Source: Rhodococcus oxybenzonivorans (lineage in GTDB: Bacteria; Actinomycetota; Actinomycetes; Mycobacteriales; Mycobacteriaceae). From it: a stretch of DNA of 64,000 nucleotides. The stretch is from assembly GCF_003130705.1 (NCBI RefSeq), contig NZ_CP021355.1, positions 806,001 to 870,000 of the forward strand, read 5' to 3'. Positions 556 to 45,404 of this stretch are shown piece after piece; within the stretch, counting starts at the first letter, position 1; each line of letters opens with the position of its first letter. The position numbers and the translations under genes were made by a program. The notes under the pieces were generated by a model. That model did not search any database and was not told the DNA's origin. It saw nothing but the letters and a program-made list of their open reading frames with translations.

Positions 556-1125
556 GTGGCGCGCCAACGCCTCGGTTTGCAGCATCGCGATTGGCACACC
601 GGGTGCGGCGACACCCCGTACGTCGAGGTCGTCGCCCGAGACCACCCGCATGAGGTGCGGGCCAAGAGCGGCTACCGGCGGGTGTACGTCTCCGACGAGC
701 TGGACCGCCTCTACGGCGAGTACGTCTGGCGGTTGTGTGAGGTCGGCGCCGATCTGGCCACCGACGACTTCGACGGCACTTGCGTGTTCGTCAACCTCGA
801 CCGGGAGCCGCGGTTCGCGCCGTGGCGACCGGAGTCCGTCTACGACCTGGTGGACCGGCTGCGCCGCGAGCTGTCGGGGCAGGTGCCGCAGGCCTGGTCG
901 CCGCACTGGATGCGGCACAGCCACGCCACGGCGCTGTTGTTGTCGGGGGTACCGGTGCACGTGGTGAGTCGACGATTGGGGCATGTCGACGTGCAGACCA
1001 CGCTCAACACCTACGCGCACGTGAGCGAGGACGCCGAGATGCGGGCGGTCGCCGACTGGAAGGCGGTCACCGCCGGCTGGCGAGTCGGCGCGCACCGCGA
1101 CGAGCGGATCGAGTCCGGCTCGTGA
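556..1125 (+). pseudogene. TnpA-like tyrosine recombinase, 5'-truncated
   Basis: About 180 residues of a tyrosine recombinase catalytic domain of the Tn554 TnpA type. Visible motifs are WMRHSHATALL (H-x-x-R), RRLGHVDVQTTLNTYAHV with the GH box and catalytic tyrosine, and a C-terminal tail of about 30 residues. The N-terminal DNA-binding domain and the first catalytic arginine region are absent, and the frame starts at the junction with an oppositely oriented recombinase, so the gene is truncated. Its stop overlaps the GTG start of the next gene, showing that the pair was a translationally coupled operon. Confidence 0.75.
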
Positions 1126-3290
1126 CCGGCGGGCGCGACGAGGCCACGATCGACTGGGTGGAAGCGGCCCGCGTCCGCTGCGACCCGCAGGCGCTGGAGG
1201 ACTTGTGGGCGGCGGTGCCGGAACCGATGCGGCTGTTGTGCTTCGCCGAGTCGAGTGTCCCACCGGAATACGCGGGAGCGTTCTGCCACGACGGGACCTG
1301 GCGGGCCGGGGTGGACTTGTCGCAGCTGCCGGAGCCGATGCGCCGGGAGGTGGCGTGGTGTGTGTTCCGGATCATCGAGCTGGGCGGGAAGATCCCGACA
1401 CCGGGCTTGAGCATGCTGGTGCGCCGGCTCGGTGAGGTGATCGCCGATCGTGCCGGGCGGGCGCCCGCCTCCCTGCTCGGACTGCCCGTGCGGGACTGGT
1501 GCCGGCAGATCCAGCATGCGGTGCACCGCCGCCGCGGACGGCTGCCGGCGGCCACCACGATGAACAACATCCGCTGCCTGCTGACGCGGATGATGCGGCT
1601 GCTCGTCACCGCCTCCGATACCGGCCCGTGGTGGCAGCGAGACCGATGGAACCCGGTCGAGGACAACCGGATCCCGCTGCGCGAGCACGAGCCGATGGGC
1701 CGGTACTCGGTGCGGTTCGACCGGATCGGCACCCGCTGGCTGCGGCGCGGGCTGCAGTGGCACTGCAAGGTCGGGCTGGAGACGGGATCGTTGAGCTGGT
1801 CGACGGTGCACCGCCGGATCGTGGCGGTGGGCGAGTTCGACGGCTTCCTGGGCGGCCGCGGGGTCGAGGGGCCGTGGCTGATCGATGGCGCCGCCGGGAT
1901 GCGGGCCCTCATGCTGGAGTTCCTCGGTCATCTCCGCGCCAGGCCGGTCACCCGTGGACGCCGCACCGGCCGGTTGTCACCGGCGTCGATGCAGCGCCTG
2001 GCCAGCGATGTGGAGCAGTTCTACCTATTCATGACCGACAACAAGGACGCGGCCGCCGCGGCGCTGGCCGAACCGGGCTGGCGGCGACTCGGACCCGAGC
2101 ACGCCGGCTTCTACCGGCGGGGTGAGCTGCCCGGCAAGCCGCGGCCCCGACTCGACGGTCAGGTCATCGACGACGACGCCATGACGCGGATCATGGGCGG
2201 GCTGGACCTGCTCGGCGCCGCGGTCGCCGACGGCGGGTTCGGGGACGAACAGGCCATGCGGATCACCATGCTGGTGGCGTTGTTGGGCCGGCGCGTCAGC
2301 GAGATCTGTCTGCTCGACCGCGACCCGCTGCTGCCGTTGTCGCCGACGGCCCCCGCCTCGCCGGGCGACCCCGCGGCAGACGGCGACGAGCTGGGGCTGG
2401 TCGCCAAGCTCCGCTACCAGCAGACGAAGATCGACGGCGGGCCGGACACCATCCCGGTGCACGCCGAGGTCGTCGCGATCATCCGCGAGCAGCAACAGTG
2501 GGCGCAGCGGTTCCTCGCCGAACACGGCGCACCCGGCAGGACCCCGAAGTACCTGTTCCTGGCCGCGCTGATGAACCGCAACGGCGACCGGCCCTACTCC
2601 GGCACCGTCCTGCGGAATCTGCTGACCGATCTGGCCGTCCGGCTGGACGTGCGTGACAGCACCGGAGCCCTGGTCGATTTCAACCGCACCCACCGATTCC
2701 GCCACACCGTCGCCACCCGGTTGCTGAACTCCGGCGTCCCGTTGCACGTGCTGCAGCGTTACCTCGGGCACCTCACGCCGACTATGAGCATGACGTATGC
2801 GCAGACGTTGCAGTCCACCGCCGAGGCCGAGTTTCTGCGCTTCCGCAAGATCACCGCCGACGGGCGCGAGCTCGAGGTCGATCCCCGCGACCTCTACGAC
2901 ATGCTCGAGCTGGACAGGCGCACCGACCGGATCCTGCCCAACGGGTACTGCCTGCTGCCGCCGCGTCAGGTCTGCGGCAAGGGCAACGCCTGCCTGACCT
3001 GCGACAAGTTCGCCACCGACGCCACCTTCCTGCCCGAGCTGCAAATCCAACTCGTCCGAACCACGCAACTCATTACCGAACGCCGCGCGACGTTCGAGGC
3101 CCGCACCGGACACCAGATGGGCGAGGACAACATCTGGCTCGCCGGACGCCACCAGGAACGCGACGCCCTCGGCCGAATCATCCTCACCCTCGGGCACACC
3201 CGGCTCGCCGACGGCACCGCCGGGGCGATACGCGGCGCCGGCGTCGAGGCTCGCACCGAGGCCATCACCGGAAAAGAGGACAACCACTGA
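1122..3290 (+). CDS. TnpB-like large tyrosine recombinase (Tn554 family)
   Basis: A 722-residue site-specific recombinase. I chose the GTG at 1122 because it overlaps the TGA of the preceding recombinase. The N-terminal ~400 residues are a long TnpB-type region. The C-terminal catalytic domain shows LLGRRVSEICLL (first Arg), HRFRHTVATRLL (H-x-x-R) and QRYLGHLTPTMSMTYAQ (GH plus Tyr). After it comes a cysteine-bearing tail (QVCGKGNACLTCDKF), also known from TnpB proteins, where it probably binds zinc. It acts with TnpA and TnpC in cut-and-join transposition without a DDE transposase. The gene looks intact, but its partner TnpA is truncated. Confidence 0.85.
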   Translation: MTGGRDEATIDWVEAARVRCDPQALEDLWAAVPEPMRLLCFAESSVPPEYAGAFCHDGTWRAGVDLSQLPEPMRREVAWCVFRIIELGGKIPTPGLSMLVRRLGEVIADRAGRAPASLLGLPVRDWCRQIQHAVHRRRGRLPAATTMNNIRCLLTRMMRLLVTASDTGPWWQRDRWNPVEDNRIPLREHEPMGRYSVRFDRIGTRWLRRGLQWHCKVGLETGSLSWSTVHRRIVAVGEFDGFLGGRGVEGPWLIDGAAGMRALMLEFLGHLRARPVTRGRRTGRLSPASMQRLASDVEQFYLFMTDNKDAAAAALAEPGWRRLGPEHAGFYRRGELPGKPRPRLDGQVIDDDAMTRIMGGLDLLGAAVADGGFGDEQAMRITMLVALLGRRVSEICLLDRDPLLPLSPTAPASPGDPAADGDELGLVAKLRYQQTKIDGGPDTIPVHAEVVAIIREQQQWAQRFLAEHGAPGRTPKYLFLAALMNRNGDRPYSGTVLRNLLTDLAVRLDVRDSTGALVDFNRTHRFRHTVATRLLNSGVPLHVLQRYLGHLTPTMSMTYAQTLQSTAEAEFLRFRKITADGRELEVDPRDLYDMLELDRRTDRILPNGYCLLPPRQVCGKGNACLTCDKFATDATFLPELQIQLVRTTQLITERRATFEARTGHQMGEDNIWLAGRHQERDALGRIILTLGHTRLADGTAGAIRGAGVEARTEAITGKEDNH

Positions 3291-3712
3291 TGCGTGGCAA
3301 CCCGGACAACCTCCGCCAGGCCGCCGCCCGCAAGAGCGCCGCCGCTCAGGCCCGAGCCGAGCAAGGACTGCACGAGATCATCCGCCGCAACGAGCCGGTC
3401 ACCTTCCGCGGCCTCGCCCGGACCGCGGGTGTCTCCCTGGACTTCCTCTACCGCTGCACCCCGATCCGCCAACGCGTCCAACAACTTCGGGCACAACAGC
3501 AGAACACACCGCCACCGGCAGCAGCGGCCCCGACCGGAGACGGAACTCCGAGCAGCGTCGTCCGCACCCTCACCGCCCAGCTCACCGAACTCAAACGGCG
3601 TCACCGTGACGAGATCAGCGTGCTCCAACAAGCGCTCGAGGCCGCACACGGCGAGAACCTCGAACTACGTCGCCGCCTCGGCGCCCAACGCGCCCTCCAA
3701 ACACCAGGGTGA
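3290..3712 (+). CDS. TnpC-like accessory protein of Tn554-type element
   Basis: A 140-residue basic protein overlapping the stop of the large recombinase by one base. It has an N-terminal segment that looks like a small DNA-binding domain (VTFRGLARTAGVSLDFLYRC), a proline/alanine linker and a C-terminal coiled coil of charged heptads (about residues 95-130). Size, position and layout match TnpC, the non-catalytic third gene of Tn554-like transposons, which influences the efficiency and orientation of insertion. Assignment rests on context and architecture. Confidence 0.7.
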   Translation: MRGNPDNLRQAAARKSAAAQARAEQGLHEIIRRNEPVTFRGLARTAGVSLDFLYRCTPIRQRVQQLRAQQQNTPPPAAAAPTGDGTPSSVVRTLTAQLTELKRRHRDEISVLQQALEAAHGENLELRRRLGAQRALQTPG

Positions 3713-3808
3713 CGCCCTGACACTCTTCTTGCAGACGCGTACGCAAACGATCTACCTGCGTAAACACGCAAATTCACGCTCATTACCCCAGATAAGAATT
3801 CGGTATAG

Positions 3809-4099
3809 GTCGACGAACTGGGCTATCTCCCGTTGCCCGGTGAGGCAGCGTCGGCGCTGTTTCAGGTTGTCACGCAACGGTATTTGAAGACCTCGATCAT
3901 CATGACGACAAACCGCAGTGTCGGCGAGTGGGGTCAGGTCCTCGGTGACACCACCGTCGCCGCGGCCATGCTCGACCGGCTCCTGCACCGCTCCGTGGTG
4001 CTCAATCTGGACGGGGACTCCTACCGCCTTCGGGATCATCACGCCCGCTCCGAAAACCTCCGCAAAGCCACCACCACACCCCGCCAACCGCTACAGTAA
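3809..4099 (+). pseudogene. istB: IstB-like ATPase fragment (IS21 family helper)
   Basis: After a TAG at 3806 the frame reads VDELGYLPLPGEAASALFQV and then IIMTTNRSVGEWGQVLGD and AAMLDRLLHRSVVLNLDGDSYR. These are the Walker B and sensor region and C-terminus of IstB, the AAA+ helper of IS21 transposition. The Walker A half and the whole istA gene are missing, so this is a 3' remnant. Terminal-type repeats of the element follow directly downstream. Confidence 0.8.
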
Positions 4100-37204: not shown

Positions 37205-37893
37205 ATGACCGAAACACTGGATCCCATGGATCAGTCGAAGATTGACCACCAGAAGCTGGCCCAACAACTGTTGGCCCAGGCCAAAGCTGAAGGTGTGGAG
37301 TTGGTCGGCCCGAACGGACTGCTCAACCAGCTCACCGCGAACGTCCTCGAAACCGCGCTCGACGTCGAGATGGATGAACACCTCGGATACGAGAAACACC
37401 ATGTCAAGGGGAGAAATGGAGGGAACTCCCGCAACGGGCGACGAGCGAAAACGGTGCTCACGGAGATCGGCCCGGTCGAGATCGAGGTCCCGCGAGACAC
37501 CGACGCCTCCTTCGATCCGCAGATCGTCAAGAAACGGCAGCGACGCCTGACCGGCGTCGACGAAATCATTCTGTCCCTCTCGGCAAAAGGCCTGACCACA
37601 GGCGAAATCGCAGCCCACTTCGACGACGTATACGGCGCATCGGTCTCGAAAGAGACGATCAGCAAGATCACCGACAAGGGCCTCACGGAAATGACCGACT
37701 GGTCCGTCCGCCCCCTCGACTCGGTGTATCCGGTGATATTCATCGACGCCATCCTCCCCCGCAAGCGGGGGCACCCCCAGTCAAGGTCCGCGACGGTCAG
37801 GTCGCCAACCGGCCCATCTACGTCGCGATCGGTGTCACCACCGCCGGAGAACGCGAGATCCTCGGATTGTGGGCCGGCGACGGCGGCGAGGGA
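37205..37893 (+). pseudogene. IS256-family transposase, 5' half
   Basis: From the ATG at 37205, residues match the N-terminal half of IS256 transposases: LDVEMDEHLGYEKHHVKG, GPVEIEVPRDTDASFDPQIV and the first catalytic aspartate in YPVIFIDAI. A 27-bp palindromic repeat (37754-37780) breaks the frame there. The protein then continues in another frame as VKVRDGQVANRPIYVAIGVT and LGLWAGDGGEG, and stops matching at 37893. The 3' half resumes at 42675, so this gene is split by a mobile module. Confidence 0.82.
37754..37780. repeat. Small palindromic repeat inserted in the IS256 gene
   Basis: CTCCCCCGCAAGCGGGGG followed by CACCCCCAG interrupts the IS256 codons for F-I-D-A-I / V-K-V-R-D. Read on the minus strand it begins CTGGGGGTGCCCCC and ends GGGGGAG, the same outline as the repeat at 45438-45473. 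Small dyads of this type are scattered through actinobacterial genomes. Confidence 0.6.
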
Positions 37894-37992
37894 TATGGAA
37901 CGAGCACAGGTTCGTTTCCGTAGTTTCGTGCTGCTACCTGAGGTTTTCCCACTGATTGGCGTGTCGTTAATCTTCGAGGTATAAGCCCGCGA

Positions 37993-39600
37993 GTTAAGCT
38001 TGTCGTTTAACCTCTGCCGTGGCGTGGGGCAGTTGGTGCTGGTGTTGTTCGGCGTGTCGCAGCGGCATGAGGCGACCACCGCCTGATCATCTTGAAGTTC
38101 CTTCCAGAGAACTTTCGAGACGAAGACAGGCGGTGGCCGTGAGTATCAGTGTGCCCGATCGGCGGGCGGTCGGGGAAGAATCGGTCCCCGATCCGCGTGT
38201 CGACCTGGTGTCGTTCCGCGAAGAGTTCTACCGGTCCCTGCCGGCCCGAGGTGATGCTTTGTTCGAGTTGACCGATGCGCTGCTGTGTTCCGGCACCGCG
38301 GTTCGCACCCTGGTCGAGTTGTCACTGGCCGCCGAGCATCGGCGCGGTCACGGCGCCTTGTACGACGCAATCAACTGCGGCCGAATAGATTACACTCGGC
38401 TGCGCCGCGCCCTCGGCGGGCTGACAATCCCGCGTGATCGCGGCGGCCGGATCGTGTTGGCCGTCGACATCAGTGCCTGGTTGCGCCCGGATGCACCGAC
38501 GAGTCCGCAGCGGGGTTCTGCCACGTCTACGGCCGCGGGAAGAATCAGGCACAGCTGATCCCGGGGTGGCCGTACTCGTTCGTCGCCGCCCTCGAGACCG
38601 GCCGTACCTCGTGGACGACGGTGCTCGACGCGGTCCGCCTACGCCCCGACGACGACGAAACCGCTGTGACGGCCACCCAGGTGCGTGAAGTGATCACGCG
38701 GTTGCGCGACGCCGGGCACCACCGCGACGGCGACCCGGACATTCTGCTGGTGTTCGACGCCGGGTACGAGCTGGCCCGGCTGGCGTTCGTGCTCGCCGAT
38801 CTCCCGGTGCAGGTGCTGGGTCGGATGCGTTCGGACCGGGTGCTGTGCTTCCCGGCGCCGCCACCGGGCCGTACCGGGCGCCCACCCCGGCACGGTTCCG
38901 ACTTCAAATTCGCCGACCCCAGACCTGGCCCGAACCCGAGACCACCACCAGCACCGACACCGATCGCTACGGAACAGCCACCGCTGCGGCGTGGAATCGG
39001 TTGCACCCGAGGCTCGTCCATCGTGGCTCGTGGGCGGACCACCCGGGACCGCCACCGATCGTCGAAGGCACGGTGATCCGGCTGACGGTCGATCACCTGC
39101 CCGGGGACCGGCATCCCAAACCGGTGTGGCTCTGGTACTCACATCCTGGTGCGGGAACCGCCGATATCGACCGATTGTGGCAGATGTTTCTGCGGCGCTT
39201 CGACCTCGAACACACCTTCCGTTTCTTCAAGCAGACGTTGGGGTGGACCGCCCCGAAGCTCCGCAGTCCCGAGGCGGCCGACCGCTGGACCTGGATCGTG
39301 CTGGTGGCCTACGCCCAACTCCGGCTCGCCCGTCCTCTGGCCGAGGACCTACGCCGCCCGTGGGAACGACCCGTCCCACCAACACGATTGACGCCGGCAC
39401 AGGTTCGTCGAGGGTTTTCGCGCACCCGCGCGACGATGCCTGTTCCGGCCAGTGCACCGAAACCCAGTCGACCCGGACCCGGACGCCCACCCGGATCGAA
39501 AAACACCCACCGCGCACCGCATCACCACGTGGGCAAACGCGCCGAAACCAAAGCTAGAAAACCCGTCGGGGCCGCCTGCCCAGGTTAAAGATCAAGTTAA
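37993..39600 (+). mobile_element. Degraded IS (IS701/NF041680-like) inside the module
   Basis: Inverted repeats flank a broken transposase: GTTAAGCTTGTCGTTTAACC on the left and, reading inward from the right on the minus strand, CTTAACTTGATCTTTAACC. The element seems to have inserted just after the left end of the recombinase module. I cannot define a target duplication with confidence. Confidence 0.6.
38139..39588 (+). pseudogene. NF041680/IS701-like transposase with two frameshifts
   Basis: Three frames add up to one transposase. Part 1: DLVSFREEFYRSLPARGDAL, ALFELTDALLCSGT and IVLAVDISAWLRPDA (first D). Part 2, after a shift near 38512 in CAGCGGGGTTC: GRGKNQAQLIPGWPYSFVAA and DPDILLVFDAGYELARL (second D). 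Part 3, after a shift near 38920 in GACCCCAGACC: FLRRFDLEHTFRFFKQTLGW (E region) and PTRLTPAQVRRGF. Both shifts sit in 4-base homopolymers. As read, it cannot make an active transposase. Confidence 0.78.
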
Positions 39601-39639
39601 GGTGTTACCGCGAAACGCTAGGTGCGAGGAAGGCGTGCG

Positions 39640-40692
39640 GTGGGTGACGAGCGACTGCGGGTGATCTCGGGCGACGTCGCACCGGGCGTGGCGACGCGAG
39701 ATCCGCAGTGTTTCCAGGCCGAATGTGTGGAGGCGTTCGTCGCGTCGTGGACCGCGCGTGGATTCGCGGAATCGACGATCGCCAACGACGTCGGCGTGCT
39801 GGAGCGGATGCTGGCGGCGCTGGGTCGGCCGGTGTGGGAGGTGACCGCCGCCGACGTCGATAGGGTGGTGGGCGAGCTGGCCAGCTCGGGTCGATCGGTG
39901 TCGACTCGGCGGAACTATGTGCAGGTGTTCAAGGGCTTTCACCGGTTCCTCGAGGTTCGCAAAGCGGCGGAGATCGAGGCAGCGTTCGGGGTGCGGCTGG
40001 CCTGTCCGCTGGACGAGTTCAACGCCGCCCGCCACGTCGGCGACGACTCGCCAACCGCGAACACGCCGCCGACACCGGAGCGGGTGGCGGCATTCTTCGA
40101 GTTCCTCAAGGCGCGGATCGCGACCGCGCGCAAGTATGGCCCGGCCGCGCGGGACTACGCGTTGTTCCGCACGCTGTATCACGCCGGAGTGCGCGCCGAA
40201 GAGGTCGTGATGCTCGACCGCGGCGACGTGCACTTCGGGCGAGGCGCATTCGGCAAGCTGCATGTGCGGTTCGGGAAGGGCGCCAAGGGATCCGGGCCCC
40301 GGCCACGGGGGGTGCCGATGTTGGACGGGCTGGATCTGGTGTTGCGCTGGTATCTCGATGACGTCCGTGGCCGGTTCCCGGACAGCTCGGTGCTGCTGTG
40401 TGACGAGTCCGGCGGCCGGATGGCCGCGGCCACGATCCGTAACCGGTTGCGGCACCTGATGGACGTGGAGGGTCGGCCCGAAGCGGAGTGGTTCAGCCCG
40501 CACGGTATGCGTCGTGCCTGTGCCACCCACAACTACGAGCGCGGCGTGGATCTGGTTGCCATCCAACAACTTCTAGGCCACTGGACGGTCGGGTCGACCA
40601 TGCGGTACGTGCGCCCGTCGGAAACGTTCATCGAAGACGCCTACCAACGCGCGATCTCGGCGACGCTGACCGAGTTGACCGGACAGGAGTGA
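39640..40692 (+). CDS. Tyrosine recombinase (first gene of the module)
   Basis: About 350 residues; I chose the GTG at 39640, six bases after GAGGAAGG, over the GTG at 39622. An N-terminal SAM-like domain (SWTARGFAESTIANDVGVLE) is followed by a complete catalytic domain: YHAGVRAEEVVML (first Arg), SPHGMRRACATHNY (H-x-x-R), QQLLGHWTVGSTMRYVRP (GH and tyrosine). All key residues are visible, so it is probably active. Its stop is followed within two bases by the HTH gene. Confidence 0.87.
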   Translation: MGDERLRVISGDVAPGVATRDPQCFQAECVEAFVASWTARGFAESTIANDVGVLERMLAALGRPVWEVTAADVDRVVGELASSGRSVSTRRNYVQVFKGFHRFLEVRKAAEIEAAFGVRLACPLDEFNAARHVGDDSPTANTPPTPERVAAFFEFLKARIATARKYGPAARDYALFRTLYHAGVRAEEVVMLDRGDVHFGRGAFGKLHVRFGKGAKGSGPRPRGVPMLDGLDLVLRWYLDDVRGRFPDSSVLLCDESGGRMAAATIRNRLRHLMDVEGRPEAEWFSPHGMRRACATHNYERGVDLVAIQQLLGHWTVGSTMRYVRPSETFIEDAYQRAISATLTELTGQE

Positions 40693-40694
40693 GC

Positions 40695-41012
40695 ATGCAG
40701 ATCAGGTGGAAACTTCGGATGGCCGCCGCCCACCGCGAGGTCTGGACCGGCGCCCAGCTGCAACGGCTGCTCGCGGAGAAGGCCGGATTGGAGCTGTCCT
40801 CGGCGTCGGTGTCGGCGTTGTTCACCAAACAGCCCAGCCAGCTCAAGCTGTCCACCCTGATCGCGTTGTGCACCGCCTTGGACTGCACACCGAACGACCT
40901 GTTCGACATCGATACTACCCCAGTCGCACAACCGATCTCGTCGAACCCGACCAAGGTCGCGGCGAACGACACACGGGCGTCGCGGCGGGGCCGGTCGATG
41001 CCGCCGATCTGA
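40695..41012 (+). CDS. Xre-type helix-turn-helix protein (second gene of the module)
   Basis: A 105-residue protein. Residues ~5-70 form a Cro/C1-like HTH domain of the type with LQRLLAEKAGLELSSASVSA and STLIALCTALDCTPNDLFDI. It is tightly packed between the recombinase and the zinc-ribbon gene (two bases on each side), so it is part of the mobile unit. It may regulate the unit or help place the recombinase at the target. Confidence 0.85.
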   Translation: MQIRWKLRMAAAHREVWTGAQLQRLLAEKAGLELSSASVSALFTKQPSQLKLSTLIALCTALDCTPNDLFDIDTTPVAQPISSNPTKVAANDTRASRRGRSMPPI

Positions 41013-41014
41013 GC

Positions 41015-42626
41015 ATGACCCGCCGGATCCGGGACTGCTGCCGCTGCGGCCGCGGTGTCGGCAAATCCGACCGTGACCTGTGTGCACGCTGCCACTGGGC
41101 GGCTTCGCACGCCCCGGTCAAACACCGCTGCCCGGGCTGCGGTGCCGACCGGGTGCTGCAGCCGGGCACCGGTCGTTGCGTGCGCTGCTCGCGCACCTGC
41201 CGACAGTGCCAGGCCCCGGTGTTGTTCGTCGCCCGAGACCTGTGCAAGGAGTGTCTCCGACGGCAACGGCGAGACGCCGATCGAGCCGAGTGCCCGCGCT
41301 GCGGCAAACGCCGGGACTTGCGATCCGGCACCGGCTGCTGCGGTTCGTGTTCGCGTCCGGGCCGGCCACCGAATCCGGACACGACCTGCGTCGACTGCGG
41401 CCGGGTCACCCGACTGACCGGCGCCGGGCGGTGCCGACCCTGTTGGGAACGCTCGCCGCACAGGATCACCGTCCGCGCCGCCAATATCGCTGAAGCACTG
41501 GTTGATCCGCCCAGCTGGCTGGGCGGATTCGCCGCCTACCTGGTCGGCCGCCATCATCCCAGCCGCGCGTGCGCCATGCTCACCTGCCTCGGCAAACACC
41601 TGATCGACGATGCTCCGGTGTATCCGCAGGTACTACTGGACGCTGTCGCCGCCGACGTGCCGCTCGCGCGGGCGCTGGAGGATTTCCTCACCGCGAGCAA
41701 ACTGGCACTGCCGCCCGACCGCGACGAACGCCGCGCCGCCGCCCGCCGCCAGTCCCGCATCGACGCCGTGCCCGCACCGCTGCGACCGGCGGTGACCGGG
41801 TTCGCCGCGCACCTTGTCGCCGGCCGCGAACGCGCCCGCCGCGCCGGCACCCACCGGCGCGGGCACGCCACGCTCGAGGCCCGCCTCACTGCGGTGCGGG
41901 ATTTCGCGCGATTCCTGACCGCACGCCGTGGCAAGACCGACTGGGCGACAGTCGATGTCGGCGACGTCGAGGCGTTCTTGCACGCACATCCCGGCCGTCG
42001 GACCTTCTACCTGACCGGGCTGGGCCAGTTCTGCCGTTACGGAATGAGGCGTCGGTTGCTGCTGATCGATCCGACCGCCACGGTGCGAGCACCGCAAGCC
42101 ATGGCAATTCCGCGGACCGACGCTTCCCGGCGACCGCCAGCGCGAGTTGTTCCGGCGATGGAGCACCGACCCCGACGTGCACCCGCACGAGGCGTTCGTC
42201 GGGCTCGCTGCCTTTTTGCACGGCGCTACCACCCGGGACCTGCAGCACCTCACCGACGACGACATCGACCACGACCAGCGCCGCATCACTCTGGGGCGTC
42301 GATCGCATCCCACACCGTTGGACCCGTGGACCTGGACCGCGCTGCAACGCTGCCTGCAGTACCGTCGGAACCTGGGCAGCCGAAACTCCCGTGTGCTGAT
42401 CACCATGCAGACCAAGGCCACCCGAACGGCAGCCTCCGACAGCTACGTCAAGCACACCCTGCGCGAGGTCGGTATTCAACCCAGGATCCTGCGCTCCACC
42501 CGGCTGGTTGACCTCGTCGGCACGGTCGATGCGAAACTCGTCGCCGCCGTTTACTGCATGACCAACGAGGCCGTCATCGCCTACCTCTCCGATCACGTCG
42601 ACACCGCGCGTCTGCCGAACCCGTGA
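41015..42626 (+). pseudogene. Zinc-ribbon recombinase-like protein (third gene), frameshifted
   Basis: Residues 1-150 contain many C-x2-C pairs (CCRCGRGVGKSDRDLCARCH, CPGCGAD, CRQCQ, CKEC, CPRCGK, CVDCG), i.e. several zinc ribbons. A recombinase-like region follows (residues ~250-370, LEARLTAVRDFARFLTARRG). At about 42119, in GCGGACCGACGC, the frame changes and continues as LPGDRQRELFRRWSTDPDVH to the end. The C-terminus has ILRSTRLVDLVGTVDAKLVA and IAYLSDHVD in place of H-x-x-R, GH and the nucleophilic Tyr, so even the repaired protein lacks an obvious catalytic tyrosine and may be a structural partner. Confidence 0.75.
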
Positions 42627-42643
42627 CAGTTCAGGCGCCACCT

Positions 42644-42669
42644 CGCACACGTTCGCTCGAACATGTGCG
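42644..42669. repeat. 26-bp near-palindrome at the right end of the module
   Basis: CGCACACGTTCG and its inverted partner CGAACATGTGCG are separated by two bases. The site lies 18 bases after the last module gene and five bases before the IS256 sequence resumes. Position and symmetry fit a tyrosine recombinase core site. The other copy (45124-45149) is a perfect palindrome. Confidence 0.65.
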
Positions 42670-42674
42670 CTTTT

Positions 42675-43025
42675 GCCAAGTTCTGGCTCGCCGTGCTGAC
42701 GGAAATCCGCAACCGCGGCGTCGCAGACGTGTGCATCGCCGTCTGTGACGGGCTCAAGGGGCTGCCCGAGGCGATCACCACCGTGTGGCCACTGACGGTA
42801 GTGCAGACCTGCCTGATTTATCTGCTCCGCAACACCTTCCGGTATGTATCCCGTCAGTACTGGGACGAGATGTCACGGGACCTGCGGCCGATTTACACCG
42901 CAGTCAACGAGACCGCGGCCAATGAGTGTTTCACCGAGTTCGCCGGCAAGTGGGGACCGAGGTATCCGGCGATAGTCCGGCTGTGGGACAACGCGTGGAG
43001 CGAGTTCGTGCCGTTCCTTGACTAC
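42675..43025 (+). pseudogene. IS256-family transposase, internal fragment
   Basis: Resumes the IS256 protein exactly where the 37893 fragment stopped: AKFWLAVLTEIRNRGVADVC, VQTCLIYLLRNTFRYVSRQY and YPAIVRLWDNAWSEFVPFLD. It ends at Y of FLDY, where an IS1182 inverted repeat begins at 43026, so the C-terminal catalytic glutamate part is missing. Together with 37205-37893 it shows one IS256 gene broken at two sites. Confidence 0.82.
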
Positions 43026-44768
43026 GGAGCCCGTCGCAGAATGCGCGTTGAGAGAACGGGTGGAGCAGTCGAGTCGATTTTCTCGTTTGCTGCCGATTCT
43101 GAGGTGGCCGACTCGTTCCGGCTGGCGCGTTCAGCTGGCTGTTGCTCGGTGGATCTTCATCAGGTTGAATGCGCTGGCCGCGAGGTTGAGCTCGCCGAGG
43201 GCGCTGTTTAGACCACGGCCGGAGAATCGGTCGAGGACCTTCTTCAGGTTGCCGATGCCGGGTTCGACGGTGGCCCCGCGGCGTTTGTAGAGACGGGATC
43301 CTTCTGGTGTGCGTAGCCGGTGCGACATCGCCTGTCTCGGGCTCGCGCCTTCCGGAGGTGGTCCTGTCACGGGCTGTTCTATGACCGCTTTCGCGTGGTC
43401 GCGTGTCTTGTTCAGCGCGATTAACCGCTCTGGTCCGGGCGCAGAAAGGTTGCTGTCACTGCAGTACCCGGCGTCAGCGAGGACGACACCGATGATGTGT
43501 TCGGATCTGCCGGTATCGGTGTGCAGCATCGCGGCGGCGCGCCCACTTGCCTCCATCATCGGTACAAGGGATGCAATGTCATTGGGACTCTGACCAATCT
43601 GTACGGCCGCGATGATTTGATCGCTGGTGACGGCGAGTTGAGCGTTGTAGCCCTGGAGGAATCCGCGCCTGGTCGGCATTAACCGTGATTGTGGATCGGT
43701 GGTGTTGGCCACCGTCTTCGGCAATACACGCTTGGCCGGCTTCGTGGCGGCTGTGTGTTCGGCTGCCAGTGCGGCTTCGACGACTCGTCGGGCGCGGATG
43801 ATTCGTGAGTGCTGTTCCAATGGAACAGGTGGGGCGCCCATCGGTTTCTTCCCCGCGGCGATCAGTGCGGCACGCCGTTCGAGTTTCGACTGGTGAGTAG
43901 CGGTTTCACGTGCCAGGTGGGCGCGTGCTTCCGCGAGCCGGTGCGGTCCGTCAGGGATACGACCGACCACAGGTTCACCCGCTTGAGATTTCGCCAACCG
44001 TGCCCGTGCCGCTGCATCGCGGTCATCTTCGTTGTTGCGCTGGCGTTTCAATTGTGCGGCCACCTCGTCGGCCGCTTGACGGATTCGCCGTGCACGACTG
44101 CTCTGGTCCATCAGCCGGGCAGGAACCCGATCATCGTCATCATGTGCACGCTGTGCAGCGCGGATGTTCTCGGTGGCGTCGGTCTGTTCGGCTTCGGCAA
44201 CCATGTGAGTGACCTGCTCGCTCAGCCACTCATGCCCGCGGTTGGCGTCGATCGATGCGTTCGCGGCGATCTTGGTGCCATCGATTGCGACCGTTCCGAA
44301 GTGCCCTAGACCGGCGTGGCCGGCGATCATCAGTACCTGCGTGAACAACCCGGTGAACGCGTCCTGGCATTCGGCGCGGAACCGGGCGATCGTGCAATGG
44401 TCGGGGACGTCTTGCGCGCACAGCACCCGGAACGCGACATCGGTCGAGCACAACCGTTCAATCTGCCGCGAGGATCGAATCCCTCTGCAGTAGGCATAAA
44501 TCAGAAGTCCCAGCAGCATCCGCGGGTCGTAACCGGCCGCGCCCACCCCACCACGGCGACGACGCCGGTCGAACTCGTGGGTATCGAGCACGTCGATCGT
44601 CTCCAACAGAAACCAGACAAGATGATCCGCAGGAAGCCATTCCCGCATATCCGGAGGCAAAAGGAACACCTGATCGCGCAACACCGGACGATATCCCTTG
44701 GCCATACCCAATTTTCCCAGACGAGCGTCACGATCAGTCCCGACGACACGCATTCTGCGACGGGCTCC
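43026..44768 (-). mobile_element. IS1182-family element with perfect 20-bp inverted repeats
   Basis: GGAGCCCGTCGCAGAATGCG at 43026-43045 is repeated in inverted orientation at 44749-44768. The 1743-bp element contains one transposase gene on the minus strand. Its two flanks are IS256 sequences in opposite orientation, each ending at the same FLDY codon. Confidence 0.88.
43131..44705 (-). CDS. IS1182-family transposase
   Basis: A 524-residue DDE transposase with ATG at 44705. It opens with MAKGYRPVLRDQVFLLPPDM, then has FLLETIDVLDTHEFD, MLLGLLIYAYCRGIRSSRQI, HCTIARFRAEC and GTVAIDGTKIAANAS (first aspartate), VLADAGYCSDSN (second), and TVEPGIGNLKKVLDRF near the end (glutamate). The frame is uninterrupted, so the element may be functional. 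The upstream extension of the frame to 45008 is IS256 debris. Confidence 0.9.
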   Translation of the reverse strand: MAKGYRPVLRDQVFLLPPDMREWLPADHLVWFLLETIDVLDTHEFDRRRRRGGVGAAGYDPRMLLGLLIYAYCRGIRSSRQIERLCSTDVAFRVLCAQDVPDHCTIARFRAECQDAFTGLFTQVLMIAGHAGLGHFGTVAIDGTKIAANASIDANRGHEWLSEQVTHMVAEAEQTDATENIRAAQRAHDDDDRVPARLMDQSSRARRIRQAADEVAAQLKRQRNNEDDRDAAARARLAKSQAGEPVVGRIPDGPHRLAEARAHLARETATHQSKLERRAALIAAGKKPMGAPPVPLEQHSRIIRARRVVEAALAAEHTAATKPAKRVLPKTVANTTDPQSRLMPTRRGFLQGYNAQLAVTSDQIIAAVQIGQSPNDIASLVPMMEASGRAAAMLHTDTGRSEHIIGVVLADAGYCSDSNLSAPGPERLIALNKTRDHAKAVIEQPVTGPPPEGASPRQAMSHRLRTPEGSRLYKRRGATVEPGIGNLKKVLDRFSGRGLNSALGELNLAASAFNLMKIHRATAS

Positions 44769-45118
44769 ATAGTCGAGGAAGGGAATGAATTCCGTCCAGG
44801 CGTTCTGCCAGAGCCGGATGATCGCCGGATACCGCGAGCCCACTTGCCGGTGAACTCGTCGAACTGCTCCCGTGCGGCAGCCTCGTTGGCAGCGGTATAA
44901 ATCGGTCGCAGATCCCGTGACATCTCGTCCCAGTATCTGCGGGACGCGTACCGAAACGTGTTGCGGAGCAGATGAATCACACATGTCTGGACAATCGTTC
45001 GATCCCACACCGCGGTGATCGCGTCCGGCAGGCCCTTCAGTCCGTCACACACCACAATGCACACATCGGCGACACCTCGATTCTTGAGCTCGGTGAGGAC
45101 GGCGAGCCAGAACTTCGC
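44769..45118 (-). pseudogene. Second IS256-family transposase fragment, inverted
   Basis: Reading the minus strand from 45118: AKFWLAVLTELKNRGVADVC, VQTCVIHLLRNTFRYASRRY, then a frameshift after FDEFTGKW and continuation as SRYPAIIRLWQNAWTEFIPF to FLDY at the IS1182 boundary. It is a diverged copy (roughly 80% identical at DNA level by eye) of the fragment at 42675-43025, so it comes from a different IS256 copy rather than a recent duplication. Confidence 0.78.
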
Positions 45119-45123
45119 GAAAG

Positions 45124-45149
45124 CGCACACGTTCGCGCGAACGTGTGCG
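45124..45149. repeat. Perfect 26-bp palindrome at second module end
   Basis: CGCACACGTTCGC followed by its exact complement GCGAACGTGTGCG. It is the counterpart of the imperfect palindrome at 42644-42669 and sits five bases from the resumed IS256 codons. It is probably the terminal recombination site of the module. Confidence 0.7.
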
Positions 45150-45166
45150 AGGTGGCGCCTGAACTG

Positions 45167-45400
45167 TCACGGGTTCGGCAGCCGGGCGAAGTCGACGTGG
45201 TCGGAGAGGTAGGCGATGACGGCCTCGTTGGTCATGCCGTAAGCGGCGGCGACGAGTTTCGCGTCGACCGTGCCGACGAGGTCGACCAGCCGGGTGGAGC
45301 GCAGGATTCTGGGTTGGATACCGACCTCGCGCAGGGTCTGCTTGACGTAGGAGTCGGAGGCGGCCGCGCGGGTGGCCTTGGTCTGCATAGTGATCAGCAC
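45167..45400 (-). pseudogene. C-terminal fragment of a second zinc-ribbon recombinase-like protein
   Basis: A 77-residue frame beginning MLITMQTKATRAAASDSYVK and ending VIAYLSDHVDFARLPNP, nearly identical to the last 77 residues of the module gene ending at 42626. Similarity stops at about 45400, where an IS630 fragment begins. It is the surviving right end of another copy of the recombinase module. Confidence 0.8.
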
Positions 45401-45404
45401 AGGC

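Follow-up and report, generated by a model that had tools for sequence, protein, structure and literature searches.

The IS256-family transposase gene beginning at position 37205 of a 64,000-nucleotide stretch of Rhodococcus oxybenzonivorans DNA (NZ_CP021355.1, positions 806,001 to 870,000; here called the window) is interrupted by genes for a tyrosine recombinase (A), a helix-turn-helix (HTH) protein (B) and a protein with predicted zinc ribbons and a recombinase-like fold (C), which raises the question of whether this trio is a transposon in its own right and, if so, how it finds its target. From comparison of the window with its relatives we consider it very probable that the trio belongs to a family of tyrosine-recombinase transposons with near-constant ends, which, in copies with readable borders, mostly occupy one fixed codon of either an IS256 transposase gene or istB, the gene of the IS21 helper ATPase, and which likely insert themselves by means of their own recombinase. 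The original prediction, which had read the locus as a recombinase-trio element of a family with shared ends, is supported in this interpretation.

The frame of the interrupted transposase ends with GDGGEG at position 37892 and continues with (T)GCC AAG TTC TGG, that is A-K-F-W, from position 42674, and the split falls within the codon for the second glycine of G-E-G|A-K-F-W, after its second base. The 5' half (37205..37892, plus strand) covers positions 6-183 of the PF00872 profile and 1-135 of the NF033543 profile, and the 3' half (42674..43048, plus strand) positions 208-333 and 168-308 of the same two. An interruption at exactly this motif had been predicted along with a comparison to empty IS256 genes, and both the frame read on either side and that comparison bear it out, since the window's flanks align directly contiguous in two intact genes, of Rhodococcus sp. 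JS3073 and R. pseudokoreensis. The flanks of a relative in istB (locus L033) are likewise directly contiguous in two intact Streptomyces istB genes, and at these sites no target base has therefore been duplicated or lost.

Relatives and the intact IS256 genes place the whole insert at 37893..42673 (plus strand, 4781 bp), from ATATGG at 37893 to CTTT ending at 42673, so that the predicted insertion stands with corrected coordinates. Taking the entire 4.8 kb as one element, as had been done, must be rejected, since 1.6 kb of it is a nested insertion sequence (IS) of the NF041680 family with a 7-bp target duplication of its own (IS at 37999-39594; 37992..39601 including the duplications, plus strand). 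The duplicated AGTTAAG borders this IS at 37992-37998 and 39595-39601, its transposase frames are broken, and it is matched by 18 Rhodococcus plasmid records, 15 of them over at least 80% of its length, the eight plasmid matches listed showing 82-93% identity and several being annotated as NF041680 transposase. Without the nested IS the element measures about 3.2 kb. Plasmids of Rhodococcus sp. ZPP (3 copies) and R. rhodochrous carry elements of similar length, 3175-3177 bp. The left half of the IS256 gene is separately frameshifted near 37.77 kb, and by eye a short G/C-rich palindromic stretch (37753-37782) appears to have been inserted there, disrupting the frame.

The targets of the family were tallied over 93 rows, comprising loci L009-L099 and two copies in the window, by comparing the flanks, unjoined, with reference pieces; those for istB and for a gene resembling phospholipase D (PLD-like) were partly taken from loci in the same tally, some rows repeat others (L009 is the window copy, L010 lies within L021 and L013 equals L063), and loci from the two collections used may have further genomes in common. 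On the right side 39 flanks are istB, 10 IS256 and 5 PLD-like, 5 are unassigned, 9 are too short and 25 rows lack a right end; on the left side 40 are istB, 2 IS256 and 1 PLD-like, 1 has no assignment, 3 are too short and 46 rows lack a left end. Among the unassigned right flanks, those of L035, L078 and L084 end in the istB motif by eye, that of L057 is a GH43 gene (Glyco_hydro_43, E 1e-27) and that of L069 remains without assignment. The similarity to istB begins within 6 nucleotides of the junction in 36 of the 39 right flanks and within 3 nucleotides in 38 of the 40 left flanks. In Pfam matches of unjoined pieces, five istB right pieces stop at position 194-197 of PF01695 and three left pieces start at 198, 199 and 206, the two flanks of L029 and of L033 meeting at 197|198 and 197|199, respectively. 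Insertions in istB are antisense and lie directly after a conserved '(T/S)SN..F'-like motif, those in IS256 are in sense orientation with all eight listed right flanks starting NGC(C/G)AAG, and neither target shows a 6-bp footprint, the target codons directly abutting both ends. Plasmid pREL1 of R. erythropolis PR4 has istB directly adjoining the trio in the RefSeq annotation as well. IS256 as the predicted target thus holds at the same codon for the copies of one clade only, most readable relatives being in istB. The PLD-like gene, with PLDc_2 and DUF7463 matches below cut-off, is entered at one spot in five loci of the window's genus (L013, L014, L015, L019 and L063) by elements near-identical to istB copies. 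Copies in the GH43 and PLD-like genes also led us to reject the notion that the targets are always transposon genes.

That these elements move is indicated by closely matching copies in dissimilar surroundings within one genome. In Prauserella muralis the elements L025 and L026 are identical at 3195/3195 positions and their IS256 flank is 57% alike; the figures for element and flanks are 3663/3663 and 57-64% in Streptomyces sp. V4I2 (L041/L042), 3306/3307 and 56-61% in Pseudonocardia dioxanivorans (L061/L062) and 3157/3158 and 56% in a genome of the window's genus (L018/L020 in G005), which furthermore carries a 97.5% identical element (L019) in the PLD-like gene. Such near-identical elements in IS genes only 56-64% alike, taken together with the absence of target duplication, make a mobile and site-specific family likely. 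Pairwise comparison of 11 IS256-clade copies (L009, L024, L121 and L122 excluded) shows higher similarity in the element than in the adjoining IS256 for 53 of 55 pairs, and in the two exceptional pairs element and IS256 are both 94-100% alike. The window itself holds a second, truncated copy (45401-44746, minus strand; 84.5% identity over 658 bp, with the right-end pattern), in which the end of gene C and the right end (45120-45401) are joined to the 3' half of another IS256 (44746-45119) cut at the same codon (A-K-F-W). The last 250 bp of the element are 92.4% alike in the two window copies and the adjoining IS256 sequences 76.9%, unlike what would be expected of one duplicated unit. Between both broken IS256 3' halves lies an IS1182-type transposase (43131-45008, minus strand), and the region is therefore a pile-up of several mobile elements.

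One may nevertheless argue that the trio is immobile, having inserted into IS256 and istB on a few occasions in the distant past and having since spread only as a passenger of the IS in which it sits or by homologous recombination among IS copies. Some pairs do have near-identical flanks (L016/L123 99.7% alike, L118/L121 98.9-100%) and have spread together with the IS, and the left and right flanks of L052, L054, L070 and L084 derive by eye from different istB subfamilies, a sign of recombination. This explanation is however in poor agreement with identical or one-base-apart elements that share one genome and one cut base in IS genes so dissimilar, with the near-identical elements in istB and in the PLD-like gene of a single Rhodococcus genome (L018, L020 and L019) and with the copy in the GH43 gene, and we regard it as very improbable. 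The compared sequences are rather consistent with repeated insertion, composite spread taking place as well. The mixed istB flanks suggest that element copies recombine with each other and that chimeric istB genes are the result.

The ends of the element are built from short inverted arms. In the window the left end (37893..37914, plus strand) comprises ATATGGAACGA and the left inverted-repeat arm GCACAGGTTCG at 37904-37914, and the right end (42644..42673, plus strand) consists of the 26-bp dyad that had been predicted, now placed at 42644-42669, and a terminal CTTT, with the inner arm CGAACATGTGC at 42658-42668. The predicted sharing of ends holds insofar as the right end is near-constant where found, being close to the consensus nGCACAnGTTCGCnnGAACATGTGCGCTTT, and fails insofar as none of that type was found in 25 of the 93 rows, the search pattern having been drawn from the first copies. 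The family right end finishes with ...CGAACATGTGCGCTTT and the left end starts with ATATGG or ATCTGG. In the 8.0-Mb genome the dyad core pattern GAACNNGTGCGCTT is present at two places only, namely at the IS256 insertions of the window, and a reversed control pattern occurs once. The dyad consists of two facing 11-bp arms, and a third arm is found 12-22 bp inside the left end; across 37 distinct elements the inner right arm (-16 to -6) matches the left arm (+12 to +22) at a mean of 9.97 of 11 positions with a minimum of 9, at an offset that is the best of a 29 x 29 grid and against a background of 2.86 +/- 1.17 of 11 over all offsets tried. Joining of the ends into a circle would place these arms on either side of the joint, an arrangement that fits a recombinase core site. 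L032 (4339-4460) has two tandem left ends at a distance of 100 bp, which may be the scar of a second insertion and an excision at the left junction.

The first two predicted genes are open in the window. Gene A (39622..40692, plus strand) encodes a tyrosine recombinase of 356 amino acids (PF00589, E 8e-21) with a complete catalytic set, R191, K219, H294, R297 and H320 being kept in 64/64 aligned sequences and Y329 in 63/64, and its nearest solved relatives by sequence are the Xer recombinases. Gene B (40695..41012, plus strand) encodes a Cro/C1-type HTH protein of 105 amino acids (HTH_26, PF13443, E 2e-9). Gene C (41015..42626, plus strand), which had likewise been taken as intact, is frameshifted near 42.1 kb, which means that the window copy is not intact, and intact relatives have 536 amino acids. 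The zinc ribbons and recombinase-like fold ascribed to C are upheld as predictions: 20 cysteines in ten CxxC pairs are invariant across 28 aligned relatives, and five zinc ribbons are therefore predicted, while an AlphaFold model (mean predicted local distance difference test score 80.6, predicted template modelling (TM) score 0.37) retrieved lambda, integron, Tn1549 and Xer recombinases in Foldseek with low TM-scores, the best being lambda Int at E 4.3e-7 and probability 1.00. The window's pieces of C gave no NCBIfam match and, for the C-terminal piece only, a weak Phage_integrase match (E 0.029); the intact relative P0002 gave no Pfam match, and the more distant relative P0097 matched Phage_integrase (E 1e-4) without reaching the curated cut-off. 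In a weak profile alignment (probability 1.1) the first catalytic arginine of A corresponds to threonine in C, and by eye the two catalytic histidines are replaced by arginine and methionine with an arginine and a tyrosine kept. From the residues missing in this alignment, made largely by eye, we infer that C is catalytically dead.

How the insertion site is recognized was approached with a target motif built from 40 distinct istB right flanks only. The junction of L057 in the GH43 gene ranks 1 of 1750 positions for this motif in the 900-bp right flank; this copy is an off-target insertion at an istB-like stretch, and that its junction should be the best-scoring position points to recognition of DNA sequence. 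Six IS256 copies give ranks of 1, 1, 1, 2 (of 514), 3 and 52 for the same motif, and the junction of L069 ranks 3 of 344. In addition, a G-[CT]-T-C-G-like half-site 13-17 bp rightward is by eye partly common to istB and IS256, and it seems, judged from these flanks, that recognition takes place at the DNA level and is in part common to the two targets. A single target motif common to all clades was also tried, unsuccessfully, as judged from the motif ranks.

The distribution of targets was compared with the phylogeny of A, which was obtained for 65 proteins by quick maximum likelihood with midpoint rooting, with support from the Shimodaira-Hasegawa-like approximate likelihood ratio test (SH-aLRT) only and with some target labels set by hand; one row, L067, is a different recombinase picked wrongly, which forms a long branch outside the IS256 clade. 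Seven IS256-target rows fall in one clade (SH-aLRT 99) that also includes three unlabelled rows and neighbours rows with mostly istB targets, and the labels on 55 tree rows require 4 changes, compared to a mean of 14.5 in shuffles. At least one switch of target between istB and IS256 thus seems to have occurred, and it coincides with a supported clade. A remote Streptomyces clade (L071, L075, L086 and L089) is found directly after a Walker-B-like DEAQ motif in an AAA gene, which Pfam names AAA_22 in L071, L075 and L086 and which in L075 and L086 comes after a transposase with a Mu-type C-terminal domain. In genome G392 both contigs have a remote-clade copy about 7 kb in from their start, and another is at 9.65 Mb of the larger one.

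Besides the pairs that have spread together with their IS, several observations weigh against the family being made up of self-inserting transposons with fixed targets and common ends. The lowest-ranking occupied IS256 is at 52 of 1750 positions for the istB-derived motif, the intact IS256 site ranks only 8 of 3152 with the right flank and 50 with both flanks, and two PLD-like sites rank 46 and 86 of 1750; because of these poor IS256 and PLD-like ranks one motif fails to explain the whole target code. The rows in which a right end of the common type was not found include the remote AAA-gene clade, whose right junction was looked for and not found and whose target is read at the left junction only. 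The catalytic loss of C, finally, depends largely on the alignment by eye, and the overall score of its structural model is low, as given above.

A mechanism that would accommodate the ends and the proteins of these presumably self-inserting transposons is that A binds the inverted arms CGAACATGTGC near both ends, joins the two ends into a circle and recombines the circle joint with a weakly matching stretch of the target gene, no sequence identity being needed at the crossover. C would then serve as a target selector or architectural partner and B as a regulator or directionality factor. The benefit may lie in the target gene being multicopy, dispensable and itself spreading, and insertion would therefore do the host little harm and would provide vehicles and further sites. 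A more far-reaching and tentative version, to which we would give slightly less than an even chance, holds that these are hyperparasitic transposons whose clades have each settled on one coding motif of transposition machinery (IstB after the sensor-1 motif, IS256 at G-E-G|A-K-F-W and the AAA gene by the Mu-type transposase) and are retargeted from one host to another by the dead zinc-ribbon recombinase acting as a programmable selector.

The family occurs in soil actinobacteria, and only a small share of genomes have it. Of 7993 scored candidates, 294 are C-like proteins at E <= 1e-3. Such proteins were also detected in 45 plasmid records out of 72,556, in 7 of the 28 genomes from the window's genus and, at E <= 1e-20, in at least 5 of 394 genomes of its class, the window's own included. 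Rhodococcus jostii RHA1 is among the strains with a relative. The search of genomes for the trio that the original prediction had called for confirmed 96 relatives in a scan of genome contigs, of which 79 loci were kept, and 67 of these have the genes in the order A-B-C; among viral contigs 18 pattern matches were obtained, none of them confirmed as relatives. Element lengths are roughly 3.1-4.2 kb across the family, and four contigs of about 3.2 kb (L021, L023, L028 and L059) begin and end at element ends, as expected of a repeated element. In the inspected copies of the window's clade C is separated from the right end by about 50 bp, and 452-1067 bp are present there in 26 of 30 measured loci, picked from those having a right end. 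Single small passenger genes occupy this space in Streptomyces and related loci (for example L095, L055 and L085), one of them a barstar homologue, and in one plasmid copy from Streptomyces the gene after C is annotated as a GNAT acetyltransferase. Among ten passenger proteins tested, Pfam named Barstar, DUF6228, DUF6882 and a HAD-like hydrolase, the latter just under cut-off, and gave no name for six; several of these single passengers may, at a guess, be lone immunity proteins.

The choice of target could also be taken to mean that the trio is a host-defence module, which would silence insertion sequences by inserting itself into genes of transposition. The IS256 transposase and istB are indeed required for movement of the respective IS, and it is these genes that are interrupted. 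The off-target copies in GH43 and PLD-like genes, the copies on several plasmids of one strain, the passengers in Streptomyces and the small number of carriers in the class sample are however more simply read as marks of a selfish element, and a function in defence appears extremely improbable.

A further possibility is that the trio is an actinobacterial transposon of the Tn554, recombinase-in-trio (RIT) or strand-biased circularizing integrative element (SE) type and as such covered by existing names. In common with Tn554 and SEs it is a small, multi-gene and site-specific tyrosine-recombinase element without target duplication, and A is weakly similar to a long Tn554-type recombinase of the window (BLASTP E 1e-4). 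The latter (836 amino acids, 780-3290) is part of a Tn554-like set at 556-3887, the other members of which are a fragmentary shorter recombinase (556-1125) and a third gene (3294-3887) that Pfam does not match; the set resembles the actinobacterial Tn554-related class in the accessible part of PMC3414803. Tn554 itself is described in the available text of PMC10214605 as having two active recombinases plus TnpC and a 6-bp footprint, the footprint being reported for SEs likewise. The trio, in contrast, has one active-type recombinase, an HTH_26 protein as B, a zinc-ribbon and inactive-looking C, with threonine at the first catalytic arginine of A and by eye neither histidine, and istB or IS256 targets; no such footprint was seen, and C has no detectable similarity to the long recombinase of the window (BLASTP E 0.13). 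RIT elements are compact trios of about 3.5 kb with an inverted repeat and a palindrome near the ends, and one has been reported in a Tn6049-type transposase gene (PMC3414803, in the part available), but RitA, RitB and RitC are three recombinases with catalytic motifs, encoded by overlapping genes, and their specificity for a target is described as not formally tested (PMC10214605, same portion), whereas B is an HTH protein and C seems to be without the catalytic set. The original prediction had set the layout apart from both Tn554 and RIT by its HTH middle gene and zinc-ribbon third gene, and the trio has a single active-type recombinase.

SEs and GInts offer a possible parallel for C, since in these site-specific elements a recombinase-fold partner without catalytic residues (Tfp and GinC) stands beside active recombinases, as far as the available text of PMC10214605 goes, where SEs are reported from Gammaproteobacteria; GInts are known from several phyla, several of them at ssb, in what is available of PMC5385486. 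Both have four core genes with two active recombinases, and the trio has neither the intA, tfp, intB and srap set of SEs nor the ginABCD set of GInts, in which a fourth gene accompanies three of recombinase type, since it consists of three genes with only A and C recombinase-like and A alone of active type. The gamma-mobile-trio (GmtX, GmtY and GmtZ) is, by its NCBIfam names and the accessible part of PMC12715929, likewise a recombinase trio with cargo, but A scores 14.6 bits against GmtY (cut-off 340) and 11.3 bits against GmtZ (cut-off 600) and the pieces of C tested have no NCBIfam match. Insertion sequences of the DDE type differ from the trio, as Pfam and NCBIfam profiles find no DDE family above cut-off in A, B or C and there is no target duplication. 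The res-site-hunting transposons of the Tn5053 type, which use DDE transposition to enter res sites, are similar in that they aim at the recombination module of another element; the trio differs by tyrosine recombination into coding motifs. No description of the trio family turned up in searches of the open-licence literature. The trio shares with Tn554, RIT, SE and GInt elements a compact, site-specific and multi-protein make-up yet lacks a defining feature of each; that an existing name covers it is in our view unlikely.

Integrases are usually regarded as aiming at tRNA or housekeeping genes. The transposons described here would instead be a compact recombinase family mostly aimed at coding motifs of other mobile elements, and with targets inside mobile elements their sites multiply and travel along with those elements. 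The trio genes are currently labelled 'site-specific integrase', 'helix-turn-helix transcriptional regulator' and 'integrase' in RefSeq, as if unrelated, and the near-constant ends provide a simple handle for annotating them together. The apparent change of target noted above furthermore makes the evolution of integration specificity testable.

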